DNA from: Sipunculus nudus
Lineage: Eukaryota > Annelida > Sipuncula > Golfingiida > Sipunculidae
DNA: 64,000 nt
Reading direction: 5' to 3'
Assembly: GCA_026874595.1 (NCBI GenBank)
Contig: CM049308.1
Location: 43,221,327-43,285,326 of the forward strand
Made by a program: the position numbers and the translations under genes. Of this stretch, positions 5,739 to 63,281 are shown one piece after another. Each line of letters starts with the position of its first letter. The first letter of the stretch is position 1. The notes below the pieces were generated by a model, which did no database searches, had not been told where the DNA came from, and was given only the letters and a program-made list of their open reading frames with translations.

Positions 5739-6038
5739 TTGTGACAACAAAACAGCAGGATAACTTCTACTTTGATCCGGCGCCCTCAGACACTGAAGTG
5801 GCAGAAGGCAGTGTAACAGAACTCAAATGTAATGTGTCAAACAGACAGCATATCAAGTTTTCTTGGATGCTTAATGGAAAAACATTAGCAAACACCAGCA
5901 GAAGGTATCAGGCTGGCAGTCACCTGCGTATAGTGTCAGCAGATAGAAATGTGGACGTTGGTTCTTACCGTTGTATTGCCACAAATGTGACAACGGGAGT
6001 GTCTAAGCAGAGCAAGGGAGCCAGAGTCACCGTAGTCT
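5739..6038 (+). CDS. PTK7: PTK7 exon encoding Ig-like domain 1
   Basis: This exon encodes the whole first immunoglobulin domain of PTK7, a cell-surface Wnt/planar-polarity co-receptor with seven Ig domains and an inactive kinase. The hallmarks are Cys at 5828-5830 (LKC), Trp at 5864-5866 (FSW) and Cys at 5972-5974 within D-V-G-S-Y-R-C. The run WMLNGKTLANTSRRYQAG closely parallels the corresponding stretch of vertebrate PTK7 Ig1. Three N-glycosylation sequons are present (NVS, NTS, NVT). The donor is T|GTAAGT at 6039, phase 1. The start is uncertain. An acceptor ending at 5738 gives a 300-nt phase 1-1 exon, as expected when the signal peptide sits on a separate exon. The frame is also open upstream, and ATG at 5678 would add a signal-peptide-like leader (TFILLFFVVVV) coded by the same T-rich tract. 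Confidence 0.85.
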
Positions 6039-25884: not shown

Positions 25885-27115
25885 TGTCACAGGGCATCAT
25901 GTCCACATACTGGCCCACAGGGCATATGATGTCCACATACCCACCCAACAAGGCATGATGTCCACATACCCACCGACAAGGCATGATGTCCACATACCCA
26001 CCCCACAGGGCATGATGTTCACATACCAACCCCACAATACATGATGTCCATGTGCCTTCCCCACTGGGCATGATATCCACATACCTACCTGACAGGGCAT
26101 CTTATCCACATACCCACCACACAGGGCATCATGTCAACATACCAAACCCACAGGGCATGTTGTCCACATATCCACCCTACAGGGCATGATGTCCACATGC
26201 CCACCCCACAGGGCATCTTGTCCACATACCCACTCTACAGGGCATGATGTCCACATACCCACCCTACAGGGCATGATGTCCACCTACCCACCCCACAGGG
26301 CATTATGTCTACCTACCCACCCAACAGGGCATGATGTCCAAATTCCCACCCTACAGGGCATGATGTCCACATACCCACCCTACAGGGCATGATGTCCACA
26401 TACCCACCCTACAGGGCATGATGTCCACCTGCCCACCCCACAGGGCATGATGTCTACCTACCCACCCAACAGGGCATCATGTCCACATACCCACCCTACA
26501 GGGCATGATGTCCACATACCCTTCCTACAGGGCATGATGTCCACCTGCCCACCCCACAGGGCATGATGTCTACCTACCCACCCAACAGGGCATCATGTCC
26601 ACATACCCACCCTACAGGGCATCATGTCCATGTACCCACCCCACAGGGCATCATGTCTACCTACCCACCCAACAGGGCATCATGTCCACATACCCACCCT
26701 ACAGGGCATCATGTCCACATACCCACCCTACAGGGCATGATGCCCACCTGCCCACCCCACAGGGCATGATGTCTACCTACCCACCCAACAGGGCATCATG
26801 TCCACATACCCACCCTACAGGGCATCATGTCCATGTACCCACCCCACAGGGCATCATGTCCACATACCCACCCTACAGGGCATCATGTCCATCTACCCAC
26901 CCCACAGGTATCATGTCCACATACCCACCCTAAAGGGCATCATGTCCACATACCCACCCCTCAGGGCATCATGTCCACATACCCACCCCTCAGGGCATCA
27001 TGTCCACATACCCACCCTAAAGGGCATCATGTCCACCTGCCCACCCCACAGGGCATGATGTCCACATATCCACCCCACAGGGCATGATGTCCACATAACT
27101 TCTCCACAGGGCAAC
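25885..27115 (+). repeat. 29-bp tandem repeat, about 42 copies
   Basis: Unit ACAGGGCATGATGTCCACAT followed by ACCCACCCT (29 bp). Many copies carry CATCATG, CCTAC/CCCAC or ACATACC/ACCTACC variants in changing order. Since 29 is not a multiple of three, three units give an 87-bp coding period, which explains overlapping open frames in several phases and both strands (for example 26798-27058 and 26080-25790). These are artefacts. Confidence 0.9.
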
Positions 27116-28918: not shown

Positions 28919-31900
28919 TAAACCTGTATCTGCAAGATGAGACCTCGTCTTTGACACCTCCCTGGTCCTCAATAACCTGTATCAGCAAGATACCACCTCA
29001 TAATGGTGACATTGTCATTGACACCTCCCTGGTCCTCAGTAAACCTGTATCAGCAAGATACCGCCTCATAATGGTGACATTGTCATTGACATCTCACTGG
29101 TCCTCAGTAAACCTGTATCACCAAGATACCGCCTCATAATGGTGACATTGTCATTGACACCTCCCTGGTCCTCAGTAAACCTGTATCACCAAGATACCGC
29201 CTCATAATGGTGACATTGTCATTGACACCTCACTGGTCCTCAATAAACCTGTATCAGCAAGATACCGCCTCATAATGGTGACATTGTCATTGACACCTCC
29301 CTGGTCCTCAGTAAACCTGTATCAGCAAGATACGGCCTCATAATGGTGACATTGTCATTGACACCTCCCTGTTCCTCAGTAAACCTGTATCAGCAAGATA
29401 CTGTCCTCATAATGGTGACATTATCTTTGACACCTCCCTGGTCCTCAATAAACCTGTATCACCAAGATACCGCCTCATAATGGTGACATTGTCATTGACA
29501 CCTCACTGGTCCTCAGAAAACCTGTATCAGCAAGATAGTGATACTGTCCTCATAATGGTGACATTATCTTTGACACCTCCCGGTCCTCAGTAAACATGTA
29601 TCAGCAAGATACTGCATCATAATGGTGACATTGTCATTGACACCTCCCTGTTCCTCAGTAAACCTGTATCAGCAAGATACCGCCTCATAATGGTGACATT
29701 ATCTTTGACACCTCCCTGGTCCTCAATAAACCTGTATCACCAAGATACCGCCTCATAATGGTGACATTGTCATTGACACCTCCCTGGTCCTCAGAAAACC
29801 GGTATCAGCAAGATACTGTCCTCATAATGGTGACATTGTCTTTGATACCTCCCTGGTCCTCAGTAAACCTGTATCACCAAGATACCGCCTCATAATGCAG
29901 ACATTGTCTTTGACACCTCACTGGTCCTCAGTAAACCTGTATCAGCAAGATACTGCCTCATAATGGTGACATTATCTTTGACACCTCCCTGGTCCTCAAT
30001 AAACCTGTATCACCAAGATACCGCCTCATAATGGTAACATTGTCATTGACACCTCCCTGGTCCTTAGTAAACCTGTATCAGCAAGATATTGTCCTCATAA
30101 TGGTGACATTGTCATTGACACCTCCCTGGTCCTCAGTAAACCTGTATCAGCAAGATACTGTCCTCATAATGGTGACATTATCTTTGACACCTCCCTGGTT
30201 CTCAATAAACCTGTATCACCAAGATACCGCCTCATAATGGTGACATTGTCATTGACACCTCCCTGGTCCTCAGAAAACCTGTATCAGCAAGATACTGTCC
30301 TCATAATGGTGACATTGTCATTGACACCTCCCTGGTCCTCAGAATACCTGTATCAGCAAGATACTGCTTCATAATGGTGACATTGTCTTTGACACCTCCC
30401 TGGTCCTCAGTAAACCTGTATCAGCAAGATACTGTCCTCATAATGGTGACATTATCTTTGACACCTCCCTGGTCCTCAATAAACCTGTATCACCAAGATA
30501 CCGCCTCATAATGATGACATTGTCATTGACACCTCCCTGTTCCTCAGTAAACCTGTATCAGCAAGATACCGCCTCATAATGGTGACATTATCTTTGACAC
30601 CTCCCTGGTCCTCAATAAACCTGTATCACCAAGATACCGCCTCATAATGGTGACATTGTCATTGACACCTCCCTGGTCCTCAGAAAACCGGTATCAGCAA
30701 GATACTGTCCTCATAATGGTGACATTGTCTTTGATACCTCCCTGGTCCTCAGTAAACCTGTATCACCAAGATACCGCCTCATAATGCAGACATTGTCTTT
30801 GACACCTCACTGGTCCTCAGTAAACCTGTATCAGCAAGATACTGCCTCATAATGGTGACATTATCTTTGACACCTCCCTGGTCCTCAATAAACCTGTATC
30901 ACCAAGATACCGCCTCATAATGGTAACATTGTCATTGACACCTCCCTGGTCCTTAGTAAACCTGTATCAGCAAGATATTGTCCTCATAATGGTGACATTG
31001 TCATTGACACCTCCCTGGTCCTCAGTAAACCTGTATCAGCAAGATACTGTCCTCATAATGGTGACATTATCTTTGACACCTCCCTGGTTCTCAATAAACC
31101 TGTATCACCAAGATACCGCCTCATAATGGTGACATTGTCATTGACACCTCCCTGGTCCTCAGAAAACCTGTATCAGCAAGATACTGTCCTCATAATGGTG
31201 ACATTGTCATTGACACCTCCCTGGTCCTCAGAATACCTGTATCAGCAAGATACTGCTTCATAATGGTGACATTGTCTTTGACACCTCCCTGGTCCTCAGT
31301 AAACCTGTATCAGCAAGATACTGTCCTCATAATGGTGACATTATCTTTGACACCTCCCTGGTCCTCAATAAACCTGTATCACCAAGATACCGCCTCATAA
31401 TGATGACATTGTCATTGACACCTCCCTGGTCCTCAGAAAACTGATATCAGCAAGATACTGTCCTCATAATGGTGACATTGTCTTTGACACCTCCCTGCAT
31501 GGTCCTCAGTAAACCTGTATCACCAAGATACCGCCTCATAATGCAGACATTGTCTTTGACACCCCACTGGTCCTCAGAAAACCGGTATCAGCAAGATACT
31601 GTCCTCATAATGGTGACATTATCTTTGACACCTCCCTGGTCCTCAGTAAACATGTATCAGCAAGATACTGCATCATAATGGTGACATTGTCATTGACACC
31701 TCCCTGTTCCTCAGTAAACCTGTATCAGCAAGATACCGCCTCATAATGGTGACATTATCTTTGACACCTCCCTGGTCCTCAATAAACCTGTATCACCAAG
31801 ATACCGCCTCATAATCGTGACATTGTCATTGACACCTCCCTGGTCCTCAGAAAACCGGTATCAGCAAGATATTGTCCTCATAATGGTGACATTGTCTTTG

Positions 31901-34900
31901 ATACCTCACTGGTCCTCAGTAAACCTTTATCAGCAAGATACCGCCTCATAATGGTGACATTATCTTTGACACCTCCCTGGTCCTCAATAAACCTGTATCA
32001 CCAAGATACTGCCTCATAATGGTGACATTATCTTTGACACCTCCCTGGTCCTCAATAAACCTGTATCACCAAGATACCGCCTCATAATGGTAACATTGTC
32101 ATTGACACCTCCCTGGTCCTTAGTAAACCTGTATCAGCAAGATATTGTCCTCATAATGGTGACATTGTCATTGACACCTCCCTGGTCCTCAGTAAACCTG
32201 TATCAGCAAGATACTGTCCTCATAATGGTGACATTATCTTTGACACCTCCCTGGTTCTCAATAAACCTGTATCACCAAGATACCGCCTCATAATGGTGAC
32301 ATTGTCATTGACACCTCCCTGGTCCTCAGAAAACCTGTATCAGCAAGATACTGTCCTCATAATGGTGACATTGTCATTGACACCTCCCTGGTCCTCAGAA
32401 TACCTGTATCAGCAAGATACCGCTTCATAATGGTGACATTGTCTTTGACACCTCCCTGGTCCTCAGTAAACCTGTATCAGCAAGATACTGTCCTCATAAT
32501 GGTGACATTATCTTTGACACCTCCCTGGTCCTCAATAAACCTGTATCACCAAGATACCGCCTCATAATGATGACATTGTCATTGACACCTCCCTGGTCCT
32601 CAGAAAACTGATATCAGCAAGATACTGTCCTCATAATGGTGACATTGTCTTTGACACCTCCCTGCATGGTCCTCAGTAAACCTGTATCACCAAGATACCG
32701 CCTCATAATGCAGACATTGTCTTTGACACCTCACTGGTCCTCAGAAAACCGGTATCAGCAAGATACTGTCCTCATAATGGTGACATTATCTTTGACACCT
32801 CCCTGGTCCTCAGTAAACATGTATCAGCAAGATACTGCATCATAATGGTGACATTGTCATTGACACCTCCCTGTTCCTCAGTAAAGCTGTATAAGCAAGA
32901 TACCGCCTCATAATGGTGACATTATCTTTGACACCTCCCTGGTCCTCAATAAACCTGTATCACCAAGATACCGCCTCATAATCGTGACATTGTCATTGAC
33001 ACCTCCCTGGTCCTCAGAAAACCGGTATCAGCAAGATACTGTCCTCATAATGGTGACATTGCCTTTGATACCTCACTGGTCCTCAGTAAACCTTTATCAG
33101 CAAGATACCGCCTCATAATGGTGACATTATCTTTGACACCTCCCTGGTCCTCAATAAACCTGTATCACCAAGATACCGCCTCATAATGGTAACATTGTCA
33201 TTGACACCTCCCTGGTCCTCAGTAAACCTGTATCAGCAAGATATTGTCCTCATAATGGTGACATTGTCATTGACACCTCCCTGGTCCTCAGTAAACCTGT
33301 ATCAGCAAGATACTGTCCTCATAATGGTGACATTATCTTTGACACCTCCCTGGTTCTCAATAAACCTGTATCACCAAGATACCGCCTCATAATGGTGACA
33401 TTGTCATTGACACCTCCCTGGTCCTCAGAAAACCTGTATCAGCAAGATACTGTCCTCATAATGGTGACATTGTCATTGACACCTCCCTGGTCCTCAGAAT
33501 ACCTGTATCAGCAATATAGCGCCTCATAATGGTGACATTGTCTTTGACACCTCCCTGGTCCTCAGTAAACCTGTATCAGCAAGATACTGTCCTCATAATG
33601 GTGACATTATCTTTGACACCTCCCTGGTTCTCAATAAACCTGTAACACCAAGATACCGCCTCATAATGATGACATTGTCATTGACACCTCCCTGGTCCTC
33701 AGAAAACTGATATCAGCAAGATACTGTCCTCATAATGGTGACATTGTCTTTGACACCTCCCTGCATGGTCCTCAGTAAACCTGTATCACCAAGATACCGC
33801 CTCATAATGCAGACATTGTCTTTGACACCTCCCTGGTCCTTAGTAAACCTGTATCACCAAGATACCACCTCATAATGGTGACATTGTCATTGACACCTCC
33901 CTGGTCCTCAATAAACCATTATCACCAAGATACCGCCTCATAATGGAGACATTGTCATTGACACCTCCCTGGTCCTCAATAAACCTGTATCAGCAAGATA
34001 CTGTCCTCATAATGGTGACATTGTCTTGGACACCTCCCTGCATGGTCCTCAGTAAACCTGTATCACCAAGATACTGTCCTCATAATGGTGACATTGTCAT
34101 TGACACCTCCCTGGTCCTCAATAAACCTGTATCACCAAGATACCGCCTCATAATGGAGACATTGTCATTGACACCTCCCTGGTCCTCAATAAACCTGTAT
34201 CAGCAAGATACTGTCCTCATAATGGTGACATTGTCTTGGACACCTCCCTGGTCCTCAATAAACCTGTATCACCAAGATAACGCCTCATAATGGAGACATT
34301 GTCATTGACACCTCCCTGGTCCTCAGTAAACCTGTATCAGCAAGATACTGTCCTCATAATGGTGACATTGTCTTTGACACCTCCCTGGTCCTCAATAAAC
34401 CTGTATCAGCAAGATACTGTCCTCATAATGGTGACATTATCTTTGACACCTCCCTGGTCCTCAATAAACCTGTATCACCAAGATACCGCCTCATAATGAT
34501 GACATTGTCATTGACACCTCCCTGGTCCTCAGAAAACTGATATCAGCAAGATACTGTCCTCATAATGGTGACATTGTCTTTGACACCTCCCTGCATGGTC
34601 CTCAGTAAACCTGTATCACCAAGATACCGCCTCATAATGCAGACATTGTCTTTGACACCTCCCTGGTCCTTAGTAAACCTGTATCACCAAGATACCACCT
34701 CATAATGGTGACATTGTCATTGACACCTCCCTGGTCCTCAATAAACCTGTATCACCAAGATACCGCCTCATAATGGTGACATTGTCATTGACATCTCACT
34801 GGTCCTCAGTAAACCTGTATCACCAAGATACCGCCTCATAATGGTGACATTGTCTTTGACACCTCCCTGGTCCTCAGTAAACCTGTATCAGCAAGATACT

Positions 34901-35011
34901 GTCCTCATAATGGTGACATTGTCTTGGACACCTTCCTTGTCCTCTTTAAACCTAGTGTATCAACAAGGTACATTCCTCATGATGGAGACATTGTCCTTGA
35001 CGACCTCCTGA
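28919..35011 (+). repeat. 68/69-bp satellite-like array, about 88 copies
   Basis: The largest repeat in the window. Unit CCTCATAATGGTGACATTGT followed by CATTGACACCTCCCTGGTCC, TCAGTAAACCTGTATCAGCA and AGATACCG (68 bp), with a 69-bp form carrying CTGTCCTCAT. Long-range copies show block amplification. The same three-unit stretch recurs at 30031, 30920 and 32087 (offsets 889 and 1167) and nearly so at 33186. Another recurs at 31469 and 32636 (offset 1167). The 3' copies beyond 34900 are degenerate. Repeated 68-115 codon frames here are by-products. Confidence 0.92.
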
Positions 35012-40622: not shown

Positions 40623-40761
40623 GGCTCGACACCCCAGCGGAGGTTCAGCTCCGGGCTCCATCGGATGAAGCCAGTATAAAGGACGGTGTTGACATCACCC
40701 TCAGATGCGAAATAGAGGGCAACCCTGCTCCAGTGATAGAGTGGTATAAAAACAAGCTGTT
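40623..40761 (+). CDS. PTK7: PTK7 exon encoding the first half of Ig-like domain 2
   Basis: Its first two bases GG complete a Trp codon with T from the previous exon. It then encodes LDTPAEVQLRAPSDEAS and runs through the B strand Cys (40706-40708, LRC) and the core Trp (40742-40744, EWYKN). The Trp-led linker and the following hydrophobic strand mirror vertebrate PTK7 Ig2. The exon is 139 nt (2 + 45 codons + 2). It ends in phase 2 at a GTAAGT donor (40762). No N-glycosylation sequon lies in this half. Ig2 is completed by exon 47707-47855. The exon sits directly behind a minisatellite of acceptor-like units, so alternative 3' splice-site use is possible. Ig-domain homology is certain; assignment to PTK7 rests on the combined exons. 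Confidence 0.9.
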
Positions 40762-47706: not shown

Positions 47707-47855
47707 GTTATATGAAACAAAAAATGTGAAGTTTAGCCGTAACCGGTTGAGACTGCTCGCAGTGACACCTGCAGATAACGGGGTGTATTCTTGTAAAGCC
47801 AGTAACAAGGCTGGAGATGTGTTCAGTGCCAACAACTTCCTGCTCAACATCAGAG
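47707..47855 (+). CDS. PTK7: PTK7 exon encoding the second half of Ig-like domain 2
   Basis: The first base completes a Leu codon begun in the previous exon, followed by LYETKNVKFSRNRLRL. The F-strand hallmark D-N-G-V-Y-S-C (Cys at 47792-47794) follows, then KASNKAGDVFSANNFLLNI. That last stretch aligns residue by residue in pattern with the end of vertebrate PTK7 Ig2 (Y-S-C, then N-F-x-L-x-I). The exon is 149 nt (1 + 49 codons + 1). Acceptor TAATTTTAG, donor G|GTAGGT at 47856, phase 1. The upstream boundary is fixed by frame: the other bases before the AG would not keep the domain in register. A shorter reading from GTG at 47726 is not needed once the splice is recognised. Confidence 0.9.
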
Positions 47856-58756: not shown

Positions 58757-58910
58757 GAAGCAATGCAGCCCATCTTAAGGAAAGTACCTTCAACCGCACT
58801 TTGCTTGTTCGCAAGCAGGGCCGAGCTCAGTTTAACTGCGAATATGAGGGTGCAATCATCACTGCTTGGTATTTCAAGAAACGTCGGCTGTCAAATGAAA
58901 CCAACCCCAG
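58757..58910 (+). CDS. PTK7: PTK7 exon encoding the first half of Ig-like domain 3
   Basis: Its first two bases finish a Gly codon with the last base of the previous exon. It then encodes SNAAHLKESTFNRTLLVRKQ and continues to the B-strand Cys (58837-58839, FNC) and the core Trp (58867-58869, AWYFKK), ending at SNETNP. Sequons NRT and NET are present; vertebrate PTK7 also has a sequon just after the Trp-containing strand. The exon is 154 nt (2 + 50 codons + 2). Acceptor TTCTGTTACAG, donor CCCAG|GTGAGA, phase 2. The upstream open frame to 58711 is intronic. The next coding segment is either the 9-nt microexon at 59332 or directly 63151; both keep the frame. Confidence 0.88.
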
Positions 58911-59331
58911 GTGAGAAAATATGAAGTCTCATTAGATGTTTAAGACACGTCTGTTCTTACTACATCTAGTATATGTCATGATGTAAATGGAGAAAATCAT
59001 TTCTGGATGTGCTTTCCTAATAATTCAATACACATTTTAGCATTTTGCATTGCCTCATCTTTTCTAATTATTTTGATAATTGCATTCATTCAAAAAGAAA
59101 GTCAGTGCATGGGACAATTATTTAAAATTATTTTTTTTCCAATTTTATCTTAGGTGTACATGTTTCGAAACTAACTCATATGGTACTACTCTAAGCCCAG
59201 CCTCATAGGAGGTGCTGACATTATTTTCACTGATACTTCAAACTCATAGGAGGTACTGGTATCAGTTTCAATGACACTCCTGTCTTAAATCAGGTTCTTA
59301 TGATTGTTTCATTTTTTTTGCTCTCGGACAG

Positions 59332-59340
59332 TGGAGGAAG
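59332..59340 (+). CDS. PTK7: Candidate 9-nt microexon in PTK7 Ig3
   Basis: Nine bases, TGGAGGAAG, lie between a strong acceptor (T-rich tract, then CTCTCGGACAG) and a perfect GTAAGT donor. Spliced between the two Ig3 exons in phase 2 it changes NPR-TVL into NPSGGRTVL, adding three residues and no stop. The insert falls in the loop between the two halves of Ig3, where vertebrate PTK7 is also a few residues longer than the directly joined form. This is inference from splice signals and frame; it could be a chance acceptor-donor pair. If real it is probably alternatively used, because skipping it also keeps the frame. Confidence 0.5.
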
Positions 59341-60149
59341 GTAAGTACTATTACTGTTAATTATTGTAAACATAGTGTTGTGTTATGTTGGAATTTTTTT
59401 TTTGCTATAAATATATTTGAATTTTTTTTACAGATCCTGGCAGCTCTTTTTTTTTCATTTCATCACCACAAGAAAATTTTAAACTTGATGAATCTATCTA
59501 AGTTTTTATGTAATTTGATGTTTCAGACTGTCATGGCCAGCTCTCATTGAACATTTTTCATCTATTAATGGACATTTTGCTGAGGCTTTTTTGTCCTTGT
59601 ATTATTTATTATCAGTGTAACATTGTTTCCCTAGTTTTATCATCAGTGTATCATTGTTATCCTTGTTTATATATTATAATGTAACTATCTTTATCCATAG
59701 GTTTATTAACTCTTATTTTTGTTTCCCTGTTGCTCTTAACTAGTGAGTCGTGTACTTTACCATTGTGTCAACATTTTATATTGACAAATTTAATGTCATC
59801 ATACAAAAATTTCTTCTTCTAATTCATATCTCTGAGACATTCACTAGATTTATATATCCAGCGCATGTTAGTTTACTATAATATTATATGTAAACCTTTA
59901 CATCTGATATGATACCAATCAAGTTTGTCAACTGTCACAGTACTGCATCTTCCTTAATCTGCTGTCAATCAAGTTTCTTACACTGCTCCATGTATGGTTA
60001 GTCAGGTACTGTTGAGATGTTGCATGCTGTTGAAATGTCCATGTTATTGCTATTATTGGTGATCTGTTTTAGTTTATTCATTCATCTTTAGGTGTTGATT
60101 TTCACTAGTGCTGTATCACAGCTGTGCCTCAGGCCATTTTTTTTTCAAT

Positions 60150-60640
60150 TTTTAGCTCAGCTGACTGTAACTAAACTGAGCCTTTGTGATCGGTCAGTGT
60201 CCATCGTCCATCCATCTGTCTGTTAGAATGGCACATTTTGACACTGTTATACCTAGAAACCTGTAACTGAATATCCAGGAGGTCAATAAAAAATCTCCTT
60301 GGAAACCTGAAATTAGGTCACTGTGACCTATATCCTCCAGGCTATGAGTGATTGACAGCAAATGTCAGTTAATTTCTCGACTGTGGTTTCATCTAGTGTC
60401 TTGAAACCTTGTGTATATATTGATTATGACTGGTTCTTCTGAACCTGAAGACTGGTGGTGCCACCTGTATTTTTTCTGTTTTTTTTTACGATTTTTTATC
60501 CTTTATTTAGAGACTGCCAAATTATATTGATCTTATCAGATTAGCAGCTGTGGTTTCATCTAGTGTCTTATGACCTTTTTAGCTCAGCTGACTATTAGTC
60601 ATCTGAGCTATAGTCATGGTCCTTTGTCCTATGCAAATTT
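60150..60640. repeat. Dispersed mollusc-type repeat, two partial copies
   Basis: TTTTTAGCTCAGCTGACT occurs at about 60153 and again at about 60578. TGGTTTCATCTAGTGTCTT occurs at about 60383 and 60551. These are overlapping fragments of one repeat family with no coding frame. The family is widespread in bivalves as far as I know. Confidence 0.55.
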
Positions 60641-60949
60641 TTCAAGTTATAAGCATAAATAAAAAATCAATACCTTAAATTTTGTCCACATTTGGCAATG
60701 GCAAGGTTTTTCCCTGTAAGCACTGTTGATTTAATTTTCACAGCATATATACATAAGGATTTAATCTTTTAAAATCTGAAATTTCAAAGGAATTGATTGA
60801 AACGAGTAGCTTGTATTCAAGTTTTCATACACCATGTAAAGTGTTGTTTACATCTAGCCCATCTATTAGTACAGCCTGCACTTGATTTATGTAACCCACC
60901 CCTGGCAGCTTGCCTTGGCTCAACTTCCCCTCTGCCCTGCACTCACCCG

Positions 60950-60975
60950 CCCCCCCCCCCCCCCCCCCCCCCCCC
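60950..60975. repeat. Poly-C tract (26 C)
   Basis: Uninterrupted run of 26 cytosines. The proline-rich open frame ending here is an artefact. Such a run is prone to sequencing or assembly length error. Confidence 0.95.
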
Positions 60976-61899
60976 GTTGGTGCATTAACTAGATGAATGT
61001 TATAATTTTCTGTATTTTATTTTGTTCTTGGCTATGCTGCATTTTAGATTTTTTATTGTACCACCTGGGTTACAATGATTAAAGTACACATTTAATTGTG
61101 TCCACAAAGTGGTGTATTGCTATGGAAGTGTGGATGTTCATCAGATAAGTAATTCCTTACTTCAGAAGAGTAAAAACTTCACCAGGTGTGAAATTGACTA
61201 TTAATTCAAGTAATAAATTATAGCTGAGATAGTAATTAGCACAATGAAATTGTTTGTCCCTCATTCAACCAACAGTGTGTATACTTTATTTGAAAAGATG
61301 TTTTTATTTTATCAGATTTACTGAATCTTTTATTTTATTTTGTTGAATAAAATTAAGTATGTACTGAAAATTCCAATGTGCAAAACTTTTTAATGGTGAT
61401 TCAAGGAATAATCTTGTAGATGCCATGTTGTTGCATTATTTGCTTTTAAATTCAGTTTAAACATTTGTGATTTAAAAATAATAAAATATATGTGTATGCA
61501 TAATATGACCCAATATGAGCTACACTCTGGATATATAATGATTGCAACTTAGAATTCTAAAATTTTAACATATTTAGTTTATTTATTAAAAATTTATAAT
61601 GAATCAGATAAAAACTATAAATGGAAAAAGTGGATATGCTAAAAAAATAGTCTTATATATAAACTTAAATGCATTATTCCCTTTAAAGTGAAATAGGTAT
61701 TAGTCCTTTCTGTCCATCTGTAAATTTTTCATATGCATCACAGTATCTCAAAACTTTTACTATTTTTCTTCATAACAGTCTTGTCAGAGTATTAGTTTGC
61801 AATCATATATTTAGAACTTTACTATAACCAAGTAGGAGGGTCCCTTTCCTCTTAGCTTCTCATATGCTTATATAAATGAAAAACATTACAATAGAATAT

Positions 61900-62100
61900 T
61901 TTGCATTTGCAAAAATTTCAAACTTCATCTGAGCGCTGTGACCCATGTGTCCCTTGTTTGTTATTGGGGCCCCACTTGAATAAGCAGATGCCCTGTATTA
62001 ATCACTGTGTCCTTCTGTCTGTCTGCCTGATCATCTTTCTGTGTGTGTGTCAAATTTGTTTTCCAATGATAACTCCAGTTTGGATTGACATATTGATTTC
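61900..62100. repeat. Start of AGGTCA-type dispersed repeat
   Basis: CTGAGCGCTGTGACCCATGT followed by GTCCCTTG marks the beginning of a mollusc-type repeat. A related phrase occurs at about 46334-46363. It leads through the TA microsatellite into the half-site-rich part at 62215. Confidence 0.5.
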
Positions 62101-62105
62101 AACCT

Positions 62106-62106
<1 letters not shown>

Positions 62107-62165
<59 letters not shown>

Positions 62166-62188
62166 ATAGATGTATAGATATATATGTA
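62107..62188. repeat. (TA)n / (GATATA)n microsatellite
   Basis: TA dinucleotides pass into ATAGATATAGATAT units. The Tyr/Ile frames on both strands are artefacts. Confidence 0.9.
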
Positions 62189-62214
62189 TGGTCCACTTCC
62201 AAAGCAAGAACTCT

Positions 62215-62690
62215 ATTGATGTTTGGATCAAAGGTCAAGGTCACAGGAAAAACTTATTTAAAAATGTGTGGATGAATTTTAAGCCAAACTTTTCATCTCA
62301 AACTTCTTCTACATTTTGCTCACCTACCAATAGTGGAAGAAACTTTTTGGATTTTGGGGTCACTAGGTCAGTGGTCAAGGTCACAGGAGCCATCATTCCA
62401 CATATTTGTTTCCAAATGATAACTCAAGTTTGGATTAACATATTGGTTTCAAACTTGATTTATATATGGCCCAGCAATAAAGTAAGAATCCTTTTTATTT
62501 TGAGGTCATGATGTCAAAGATCAAGGTCACAGGGGTGATCTGTCCACATATTGGTTTCCAGATGACAACACCACTTTGGATTAAAATATTGGTTTCTTAC
62601 TTGACTTATATATGGCCCACCACTAAAGAAAGACCCCTATGATTTTGGGATCAAGAGGTCAGAGGTCAAGGATATCTTTAAAAAGATTTT
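62215..62690. repeat. Diverged copies of the AGGTCA-rich repeat
   Basis: Two to three degenerate copies related to 43861-45135. Shared phrases include AAAGGTCAAGGTCACAGGA, AGCCAAACTTTTCATCTCA, GTTTCCAAATGATAACTC and TATATGGCCCA. Spacing is roughly 145-170 bp between half-site clusters. No intact frame. Confidence 0.7.
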
Positions 62691-63150
62691 CTGATGATGT
62701 TGCTCTGGTGTATGTTTAACAAAGACAGGCAATACAAAGTGACCTTTGCTCAGTGTTTATTTAAAATAAATAGGTTATATCATTTGTTAAGCCTTATCAT
62801 ACGTCACTGCTAACCTTGGTGGTAATGTAGGCCCACACAGTATTGTTACTCAATGCAGAGTGATGGCATGCTGGCTTTTTAAAACTTCTATAATAATTAA
62901 GTGATTGTGATACCTGCAAATTTCATTAAAACAACCAAGAACAATACAGAATCCACAATATATTCAAGTAAGAGCAACATAAAATACCAGGATGTCCTGT
63001 CAAATAACGTATAGCCCAATAATTACAGCAAAAGATAATAGAGGGTCTTTTTAATATATAAGGTCAGAGAAAAAAGTGTTAAAATCGCTTTATTTCAAAC
63101 TCCTTTGTGGAAGAGGTAATGATATATGATTGATGTTGTGTTCTGTTTAG
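62691..63150. other. Intronic stretch before the Ig3b exon
   Basis: AT-rich and apparently unique; nothing was recognised in it. It ends in TGTGTTCTGTTTAG, the acceptor of the next PTK7 exon. Confidence 0.5.
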
Positions 63151-63281
63151 GACTGTCCTTTACCCTAACGGAACACTGATAGTGGACCAGGTCAGAGAGA
63201 GGGATGCTGGGGTGTACAGCTGCGTTGGGATCAGCGAGTCAGGACCAGTACAAACATTTGTGTCAGAGCTCATTCTTTCAT
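63151..63281 (+). CDS. PTK7: PTK7 exon encoding the second half of Ig-like domain 3
   Basis: The first base completes an Arg codon. It then encodes TVLYPNGTLIVDQVRERDAG and VYSCVGISESGPVQTF. The pattern T-V-x-x-N-G-(S/T)-L followed by Q-V-R, D/N-A-G, Y-x-C and a GP-containing turn matches the second half of PTK7 Ig3 in vertebrates closely and is the best single piece of evidence for orthology. The F-strand Cys is at 63221-63223. NGT is a sequon. The exon is 131 nt (1 + 43 codons + 1). Acceptor TTCTGTTTAG, donor T|GTAAGT at 63282, phase 1, leading to the Ig4 exon outside the window. Confidence 0.9.

Follow-up and report, generated by a model that had tools for sequence, protein, structure and literature searches.

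Nine nucleotides at positions 59332-59340 of the window (the whole 64,000-nt stretch of Sipunculus nudus DNA analysed here) on balance probably form a real optional exon, a cassette microexon of the PTK7/Otk gene. The candidate, TGGAGGAAG, lies within the coding region of the third immunoglobulin domain (Ig3), in the context CTCTCGGACAG/TGGAGGAAG/GTAAGT (slashes mark exon boundaries), and is bounded by GGACAG on its 5' side and GTAAGT on its 3' side (Table 1). It is located 421 nt past the first-half exon of Ig3, and the introns on either side of it would measure 421 and 3,810 nt. The first-half exon ends in ACC AAC CCC AG/GTGAGA, and the second half starts at TTTAG/G ACT GTC. Skipping of the nine nucleotides yields SNETNPRTVLYPNG (NPRTVL), and inclusion yields SNETNPSGGRTVLYPNG (NPSGGRTVL); both products are in frame and free of stops in that frame. 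An initial annotation had described this same three-residue insert, which turns NPR-TVL into NPSGGRTVL. Translation of both forms bears it out, and the coordinates, letters and phase (2) assigned to the candidate proved exact on re-reading.

Microexons are cassette exons of up to 27-51 nt, a limit within which the candidate falls at 9 nt as an exon delimited by splice-site score only, and the frame is kept with inclusion and with skipping alike. The 301-nt region around the candidate matches only itself within its own genome, where the second-half exon of Ig3 has one strong match; the next two, on C5, are weak (E 0.036 and 0.24).

Table 1. Coordinates of the features discussed, numbered from the start of the window except where a C7 coordinate is given.
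Feature	Position	Strand	Remarks
PTK7 Ig1 coding sequence	5759..6037	+	exon ends approximate
PTK7 Ig2 first half	40623..40761	+	exon start approximate
PTK7 Ig2 second half	47707..47855	+	Ig2 intron also phase 2
First half of PTK7 Ig3 exon (SNAAHLKE...SNETNP)	58757..58910	+	frame reading; acceptor TTACAG 5.3 bits, donor AG/GTGAGA 7.7 bits
Phase-2 intron within Ig3 coding region	58911..63150	+	4,240 nt
AG-free zone upstream of acceptor	59294..59329	+	36 nt
Candidate branch point CTTAT	59297..59301	+	A at -32; yTnAy match, weak motif
T8 tract	59312..59319	+	
UGC (59319-59321) then UCUC (59322-59325), eMIC/SRRM4-type enhancer-like	59319..59325	+	motif match
Acceptor AG of candidate microexon	59330..59331	+	5.9 bits
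Candidate microexon TGGAGGAAG	59332-59340	+	net insert Ser-Gly-Gly, NP[SGG]RTVL
Donor GTAAGT	59341..59346	+	7.8 bits; preceded by AAG, full consensus
Four-YCAY cluster, possible NOVA site	59455..59469	+	115-129 nt past donor; cut-off chosen after seeing the cluster
Second half of PTK7 Ig3 exon (TVLYPNG...SELILS)	63151..63281	+	frame reading
cwf21 exon, start MYNGIGL	C7:69757001		eMIC exons 81-93 kb downstream
eMIC exons	frame from C7:69838283, and C7:69849878	same as cwf21 exon	PF15230 when joined
End of putative Srrm234-type gene	G000:C7:69837409-69849919		RS-rich frames and intron-split eMIC (...GSPSHLERRRIT / SARKRPTPYYRPSP...)

Gene Identity and Domain Layout

The gene was read over 134 kb, 70 kb past the window having been added, with frames taken from the frame listing and a motif scan. 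In continued window numbering, a kinase exon lies at 120.5 kb, some 56.5 kb beyond the end of the window, and 39 of its residues were compared with the PDB. Their top match is human PTK7 (6vg3; E 6e-10), followed by EphA4 (7e-5) and, more weakly, other Eph receptors. A transmembrane-like exon at 117.3 kb was read by eye among the frames listed. At the other end of the gene, Ig1-Ig2 aligns with Drosophila Otk (6s9f) in a single stretch of 83.7 bits that starts near the Otk N-terminus and is the highest single stretch in the three alignments listed; over the whole Ig1-Ig2 query, titin (132.9 bits) scores above Otk (116.6 bits). Arrays of Ig domains can score high over a whole query, as titin does here. 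Both marks by which membership of the PTK7/Otk family was judged were thus found, namely a PTK7-type pseudokinase downstream of an Ig array and membrane segment, and a likeness of Ig1-Ig2 to Otk/PTK7. Because Ig1 (5.76 kb) and Ig2 (40.6 and 47.7 kb) lie upstream, the domain that holds the candidate is Ig3. The earlier assignment to PTK7 Ig3 is therefore upheld by the kinase match to human PTK7 and by the two upstream domains.

The intron between Ig1 and Ig2 also contains two tandem arrays. In one (28947-35008; 89% matches), a 68-nt unit is repeated about 88 times and long open frames are kept; in the other (25888-27113), a 29-nt unit is repeated about 42 times.

Strength of the Splice Sites and Expectation by Chance

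The candidate combines two strong splice sites. Under weights drawn from general animal frequencies, which may not be those of S. nudus, its donor is the best of the 260 GTs scored between 58930 and 63140, ahead by 3 bits in the one donor model used, and its acceptor ranks 1, 1, 4, 1, 3 and 4 among the 201 AGs of the same interval in six acceptor models. Among 60 other tiles of equal length (both strands, exons included), just one likewise has its highest-scoring donor preceded at 3-30 nt by its highest-scoring acceptor. The sites also stand comparison with those of the gene itself. Among the first donors listed at the ends of 13 of its coding blocks, a single one (8.6 bits) beats that of the candidate, and the candidate acceptor falls inside the range of 2.0-8.2 bits spanned by the gene's own acceptors (assignable for 11 of the 13 blocks). 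Markov simulations of 12 Mb each, matched to the composition of the sequence, produced pairs as good 4 times at order 2 and 10 times at order 4, which corresponds to 0.0014-0.0035 expected per such intron and, for 64 kb of a single strand, 0.02-0.05. An upstream TGC accompanied none of the 4 pairs at order 2 and 3 of the 10 at order 4. The framing of the candidate by a long T-rich tract and GTAAGT, to which the initial annotation had pointed, accordingly stands, with a run of eight T and splice sites stronger than chance.

A lesser, though real, possibility is that a cryptic AG and GT came to lie together by chance in a T-rich intron and are never spliced in, so that the NPR-TVL form is the only one made. 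The first search spanned the whole 64-kb window, for which the 0.02-0.05 pairs given above are expected, and other T-rich acceptor-like sites recur within the intron at 59154, 59434 and 60341. When pairs separated by 3-30 nt with an exon length divisible by three were scored over the 134 kb, the candidate topped the + strand with 13.7 bits (runner-up 5.9), whereas on the - strand a 21-nt pair reached 16.35 bits and exceeded it (runner-up 6.24). What speaks against coincidence is that the top donor of the intron and one of its top acceptors stand 9 nt apart in the correct order, frame and strand, with UGC and UCUC at the expected position.

The 21-nt pair on the - strand is located at G000:C3:43308141-43308161, that is, 86815-86835 from the window start and beyond the window; it lies antisense in the stretch from PTK7 Ig3 to Ig4.

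Genome-wide counts bear on the same question. The pattern TTTTTTTN{3,12}CAGN{0,24}MAGGTAAGT (T7...CAG...MAG/GTAAGT) was searched across the whole genome together with a reversed control and returned 58 raw matches against 44 for the control. Because T runs match repeatedly, the 58 were merged to 38 distinct donors (20 rows dropped). Exon lengths measured from the first CAG at these 38 sites leave remainders of 0, 1 and 2 on division by three in 14, 13 and 11 cases, so that lengths which preserve the frame are not overrepresented. If real microexons of this form were numerous in the genome, a surplus at remainder 0 would be expected, and most sites of such strength are therefore probably due to chance, which favors a chance origin for the candidate as well. 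A second pattern, based on TTTTTGCTCT and written TTTTTGCTCTN{2,12}CAGN{3,30}GTAAGT, gave 6 matches in the whole genome and 2 in its reversed control, with no sign of a large set of microexons sharing exactly TTTTTGCTCT. Both genome-wide pattern tests for a microexon programme are underpowered or negative and weigh against it. In our judgement, the candidate is lifted above the other similar sites by its sense strand, its place in an intron of a receptor gene and the motif at its proper position.

The probability that we attach to a real optional microexon is a judgement formed in the same way. A handful of real sites was set against some 12 chance sites per length class genome-wide; the place in a sense-strand intron was considered next, and then the motif. 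Real microexons number some hundreds per genome, a figure assumed in this estimate.

Two other uses of the same donor were considered. Among the upstream acceptors listed for it, just two would delimit a stop-free exon divisible by three, of 9 and 75 nt; the 75-nt exon was rejected, since its acceptor scores -7.9 bits against 5.9 for the 9-nt exon. It is also highly improbable that the site is a recursive splice site or a decoy, whose donor would aid removal of the intron in two steps or delay it, with the nine nucleotides absent from the mature mRNA. The AAG abutting GTAAGT does create a juxtaposed AG/GT, but the intron is just 4.2 kb long, and recursive splicing was rejected as the main reading with a score of -5.9 bits for the acceptor of a zero-length exon at 59341.

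Regulatory Motifs Around the Candidate

The sequence upstream of the candidate resembles the code by which eMIC (SRRM3/4-type) neural microexons are marked. Exons that depend on eMIC are described as having long AG exclusion zones, pyrimidine tracts that contain UCUC, and a UGC near the 3' splice site, which itself is extremely weak (PMC8797185). In the candidate, GCTCTC follows directly on the T8 tract. Relative to the exon, the first letter of UGC stands at -13 and that of UCUC at -10, which places UGC near the acceptor and UCUC within the pyrimidine tract; UGC by chance is common, with 0.37 expected per any 31 nt of the intron. A strong branch point also belongs to the eMIC type. Upstream of the candidate, branch points are represented by yTnAy matches: besides the putative branch point of Table 1, a second match, TTCAT, has its A at -21. 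The candidate thus shares UGC, UCUC and a pyrimidine tract with eMIC exons of Drosophila and mammals, and with its 36 nt free of AG may share their exclusion zone, in a species that encodes an eMIC domain, but differs from them in that its acceptor is not weak (PMC8797185). As the acceptor (5.9 bits) lies within the range of the gene's assigned acceptors, against the tendency of the group, the candidate is not filed as a proven eMIC-dependent member.

The donor side also divides the known cases. Fly eMIC exons are reported to have weak 5' splice sites, short surrounding introns and a median of 31 nt (PMC8797185). The candidate departs from them in its strong donor, its 9 nt against that median, and its introns of 421 and 3,810 nt (PMC8797185). 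SRRM4-dependent microexons, by contrast, are reported to stand out by the strength of their 5' splice sites, with the downstream intron mostly removed first (PMC10250204), and the full-consensus donor of the candidate fits these mammalian exons. Taken together, control of this optional microexon by eMIC is a good possibility that stays somewhat short of probable.

Regulation by other means is a less likely course. The exon would then be real and governed by a non-neural factor or by a protein of the NOVA type that binds the YCAY cluster downstream. This cluster packs four YCAY into the 15 nt from +115 to +129; the + strand of the 134 kb has two such clusters, with 0.002 expected per 150 nt under a cut-off set post hoc. 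YCAY itself is not enriched downstream of the candidate (4 per 150 nt against 3.1 expected). The 9-bp Robo1 exon 6b offers a precedent, being under NOVA control by repression (PMC6687390), and the acceptor, not being weak, is unlike that of typical eMIC exons. The UGC/UCUC element fits eMIC instead, and we consider non-eMIC control unlikely.

An eMIC Domain Encoded in the Genome

By its genome sequence, S. nudus encodes an eMIC domain. A Pfam search of the genome for this domain at E 0.001 gave no match. Relaxed to E 10, it gave three weak matches, one of them on C7, where a cwf21 exon lies 93 kb upstream, and the others on C13 and C14; a second cwf21 match in the genome lies on C9. At the C7 match, which was read together with the preceding 30 kb, the domain proved to be split over two exons. 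When these two C7 exons are joined, they match PF15230 (eMIC) with 54.7 bits (E 1.6e-14; cut-off 27) across a proper AG/GT...AG phase-2 junction, with ATC ACC AG/GTAC as donor and TTTCCAG/T GCA AGA as acceptor. Read-through into the eMIC intron leads to RYKTEKF and then a stop, and another RS-rich frame (69841608) is found inside this intron. A Srrm234-type form without eMIC could therefore arise by processing, and eMIC-less forms that arise in this way are reported from non-vertebrates (PMC8797185). The initial annotation had observed the short candidate exon with its T-rich tract and splice sites. The signature of UGC/UCUC, T tract and AG-free zone and the eMIC-encoding locus are additions that strengthen this observation.

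Predicted Mechanism and Effect on Ig3

The genomic DNA shows the letters, the frame, the splice-site ranks, the motif and an encoded eMIC domain; that the exon is used in mRNA under neuronal control, which strands of Ig3 flank its insert, and how the insert acts on the protein are matters that we infer. The very strong 5' splice site of the candidate would be recognized first. Since the exon is too short for unaided exon definition, a neuronal activator would be needed for its 3' splice site to be used. The most likely activator is the eMIC domain of Srrm234, which would act through UGC/UCUC at 7-13 nt upstream; a NOVA-type protein bound to the downstream YCAY cluster might modulate the outcome. 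Inclusion would place Ser-Gly-Gly in the Ig3 loop between the C/C' and D strands and lengthen this surface loop, and the longer loop could give a second form of the receptor that differs in how it contacts partners or packs its domains.

Sequence alignment and general Ig anatomy suggest that the insert follows strands C/C' and precedes strand D. Loop length varies here among homologues in low-scoring alignments: Robo2 Ig4 has 8 additional residues a few positions before the insert, and Robo Ig1 has 2 just after it. The joined Ig3 loses 0.5-1.8 bits across three Pfam Ig models when the insert is present. The ig model falls from 28.5 to 27.7 bits and Ig_3 from 28.0 to 27.5 bits (both forms under its cut-off of 30), while I-set falls from 24.3 to 22.5 bits and so passes under its cut-off of 23.7. 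Tolerance of three additional residues by Ig3 is plausible on these scores, and the insert may tune contacts without disturbing the fold, as had been proposed.

A mouse mutant provides the closest parallel within the same gene. In chuzhoi, a splice mutation is reported to add 9 nt (Ala-Asn-Pro) to Ptk7 between Ig5 and Ig6 and to alter the abundance of Ptk7 protein forms; its authors hold the insert responsible for defects in planar polarity and the neural tube, with other mutations incompletely excluded by their account (PMC2930600). This phenotype suggests that three residues in the PTK7 ectodomain can matter, for better or worse. In both cases, splicing at an intron boundary adds 9 nt and three residues to the ectodomain, but in chuzhoi a mutation creates a new acceptor rather than a separate exon, the site is that between Ig5 and Ig6, and the result is harmful (PMC2930600). 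A more far-reaching reading takes the candidate as a natural counterpart of chuzhoi, a neuron-restricted Ser-Gly-Gly switch driven by eMIC that arose at a mid-Ig intron and gives this lineage a distinct neuronal form of PTK7. We regard this full scenario as rather unlikely.

Comparison With Known Microexons

The NCAM VASE exon lies inside Ig4, is longer than 9 nt and belongs to a different gene. It resembles the candidate as a short optional exon in the ectodomain of an Ig receptor (PMC2644493). A closer counterpart in size is exon 6b of the Robo receptors, which has 9 bp in Robo1 and 12 bp in Robo2 and encodes a linker from Ig3 to Ig4; NOVA represses the 9-bp Robo1 exon, and the resulting receptor forms are reported to differ in guidance activity (PMC6687390). 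Robo1 6b and the candidate are alike in being frame-neutral, 9 bp long and apt to lengthen a guidance receptor by three residues within its Ig ectodomain. They differ in that the Robo exon sits in an inter-domain linker and its use and function were shown by experiment, whereas the candidate falls in a loop inside Ig3 and is read from sequence (PMC6687390). For the meB microexon of PTPRD, a LAR-RPTP, UCUCU and UGC motifs are described as enhancers (PMC13080001). It shares with the candidate the character of a tiny exon in a large surface receptor with UCUCU/UGC in the upstream intron, but it belongs to another receptor, encodes four residues rather than three, and has been demonstrated in mice (PMC13080001).

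The kind of element is hence well known, and its location in PTK7 Ig3 appears to be new by searches of the open-licence literature. A PTK7 microexon is not known to us from vertebrates or flies. No description of a microexon in PTK7 Ig3 was found in these searches, nor were octopus microexons. Planar polarity and Wnt signalling have so far been the main contexts in which PTK7 is considered. Its role in planar polarity is treated in the chuzhoi report (PMC2930600). If the candidate is used as proposed, PTK7 would join Robo and the LAR-type receptors as receptors with an ectodomain adjusted by a tiny optional exon, with an example from an animal outside the usual models, and a planar-polarity/Wnt co-receptor would gain a distinct neuronal form.

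Look-alikes of a 9-nt exon also occur in repeated DNA of the same genome. At G000:C4:6929311-6929988, about 8.7 tandem copies of a 79-nt unit each look like a 3' splice-site region (TTTTCATCGACAG). Two of the units contain ACAG/AGAACCCAG/GTAAGT, which has the appearance of a 9-nt exon, and others have an 8-nt form (ACAACCCT/GTAAGT). This array lies directly upstream of an open frame that is perhaps a true exon (ELLDKPAEHLVMNQADSYRKTQELRYIIDRTIPTMDYGKG).
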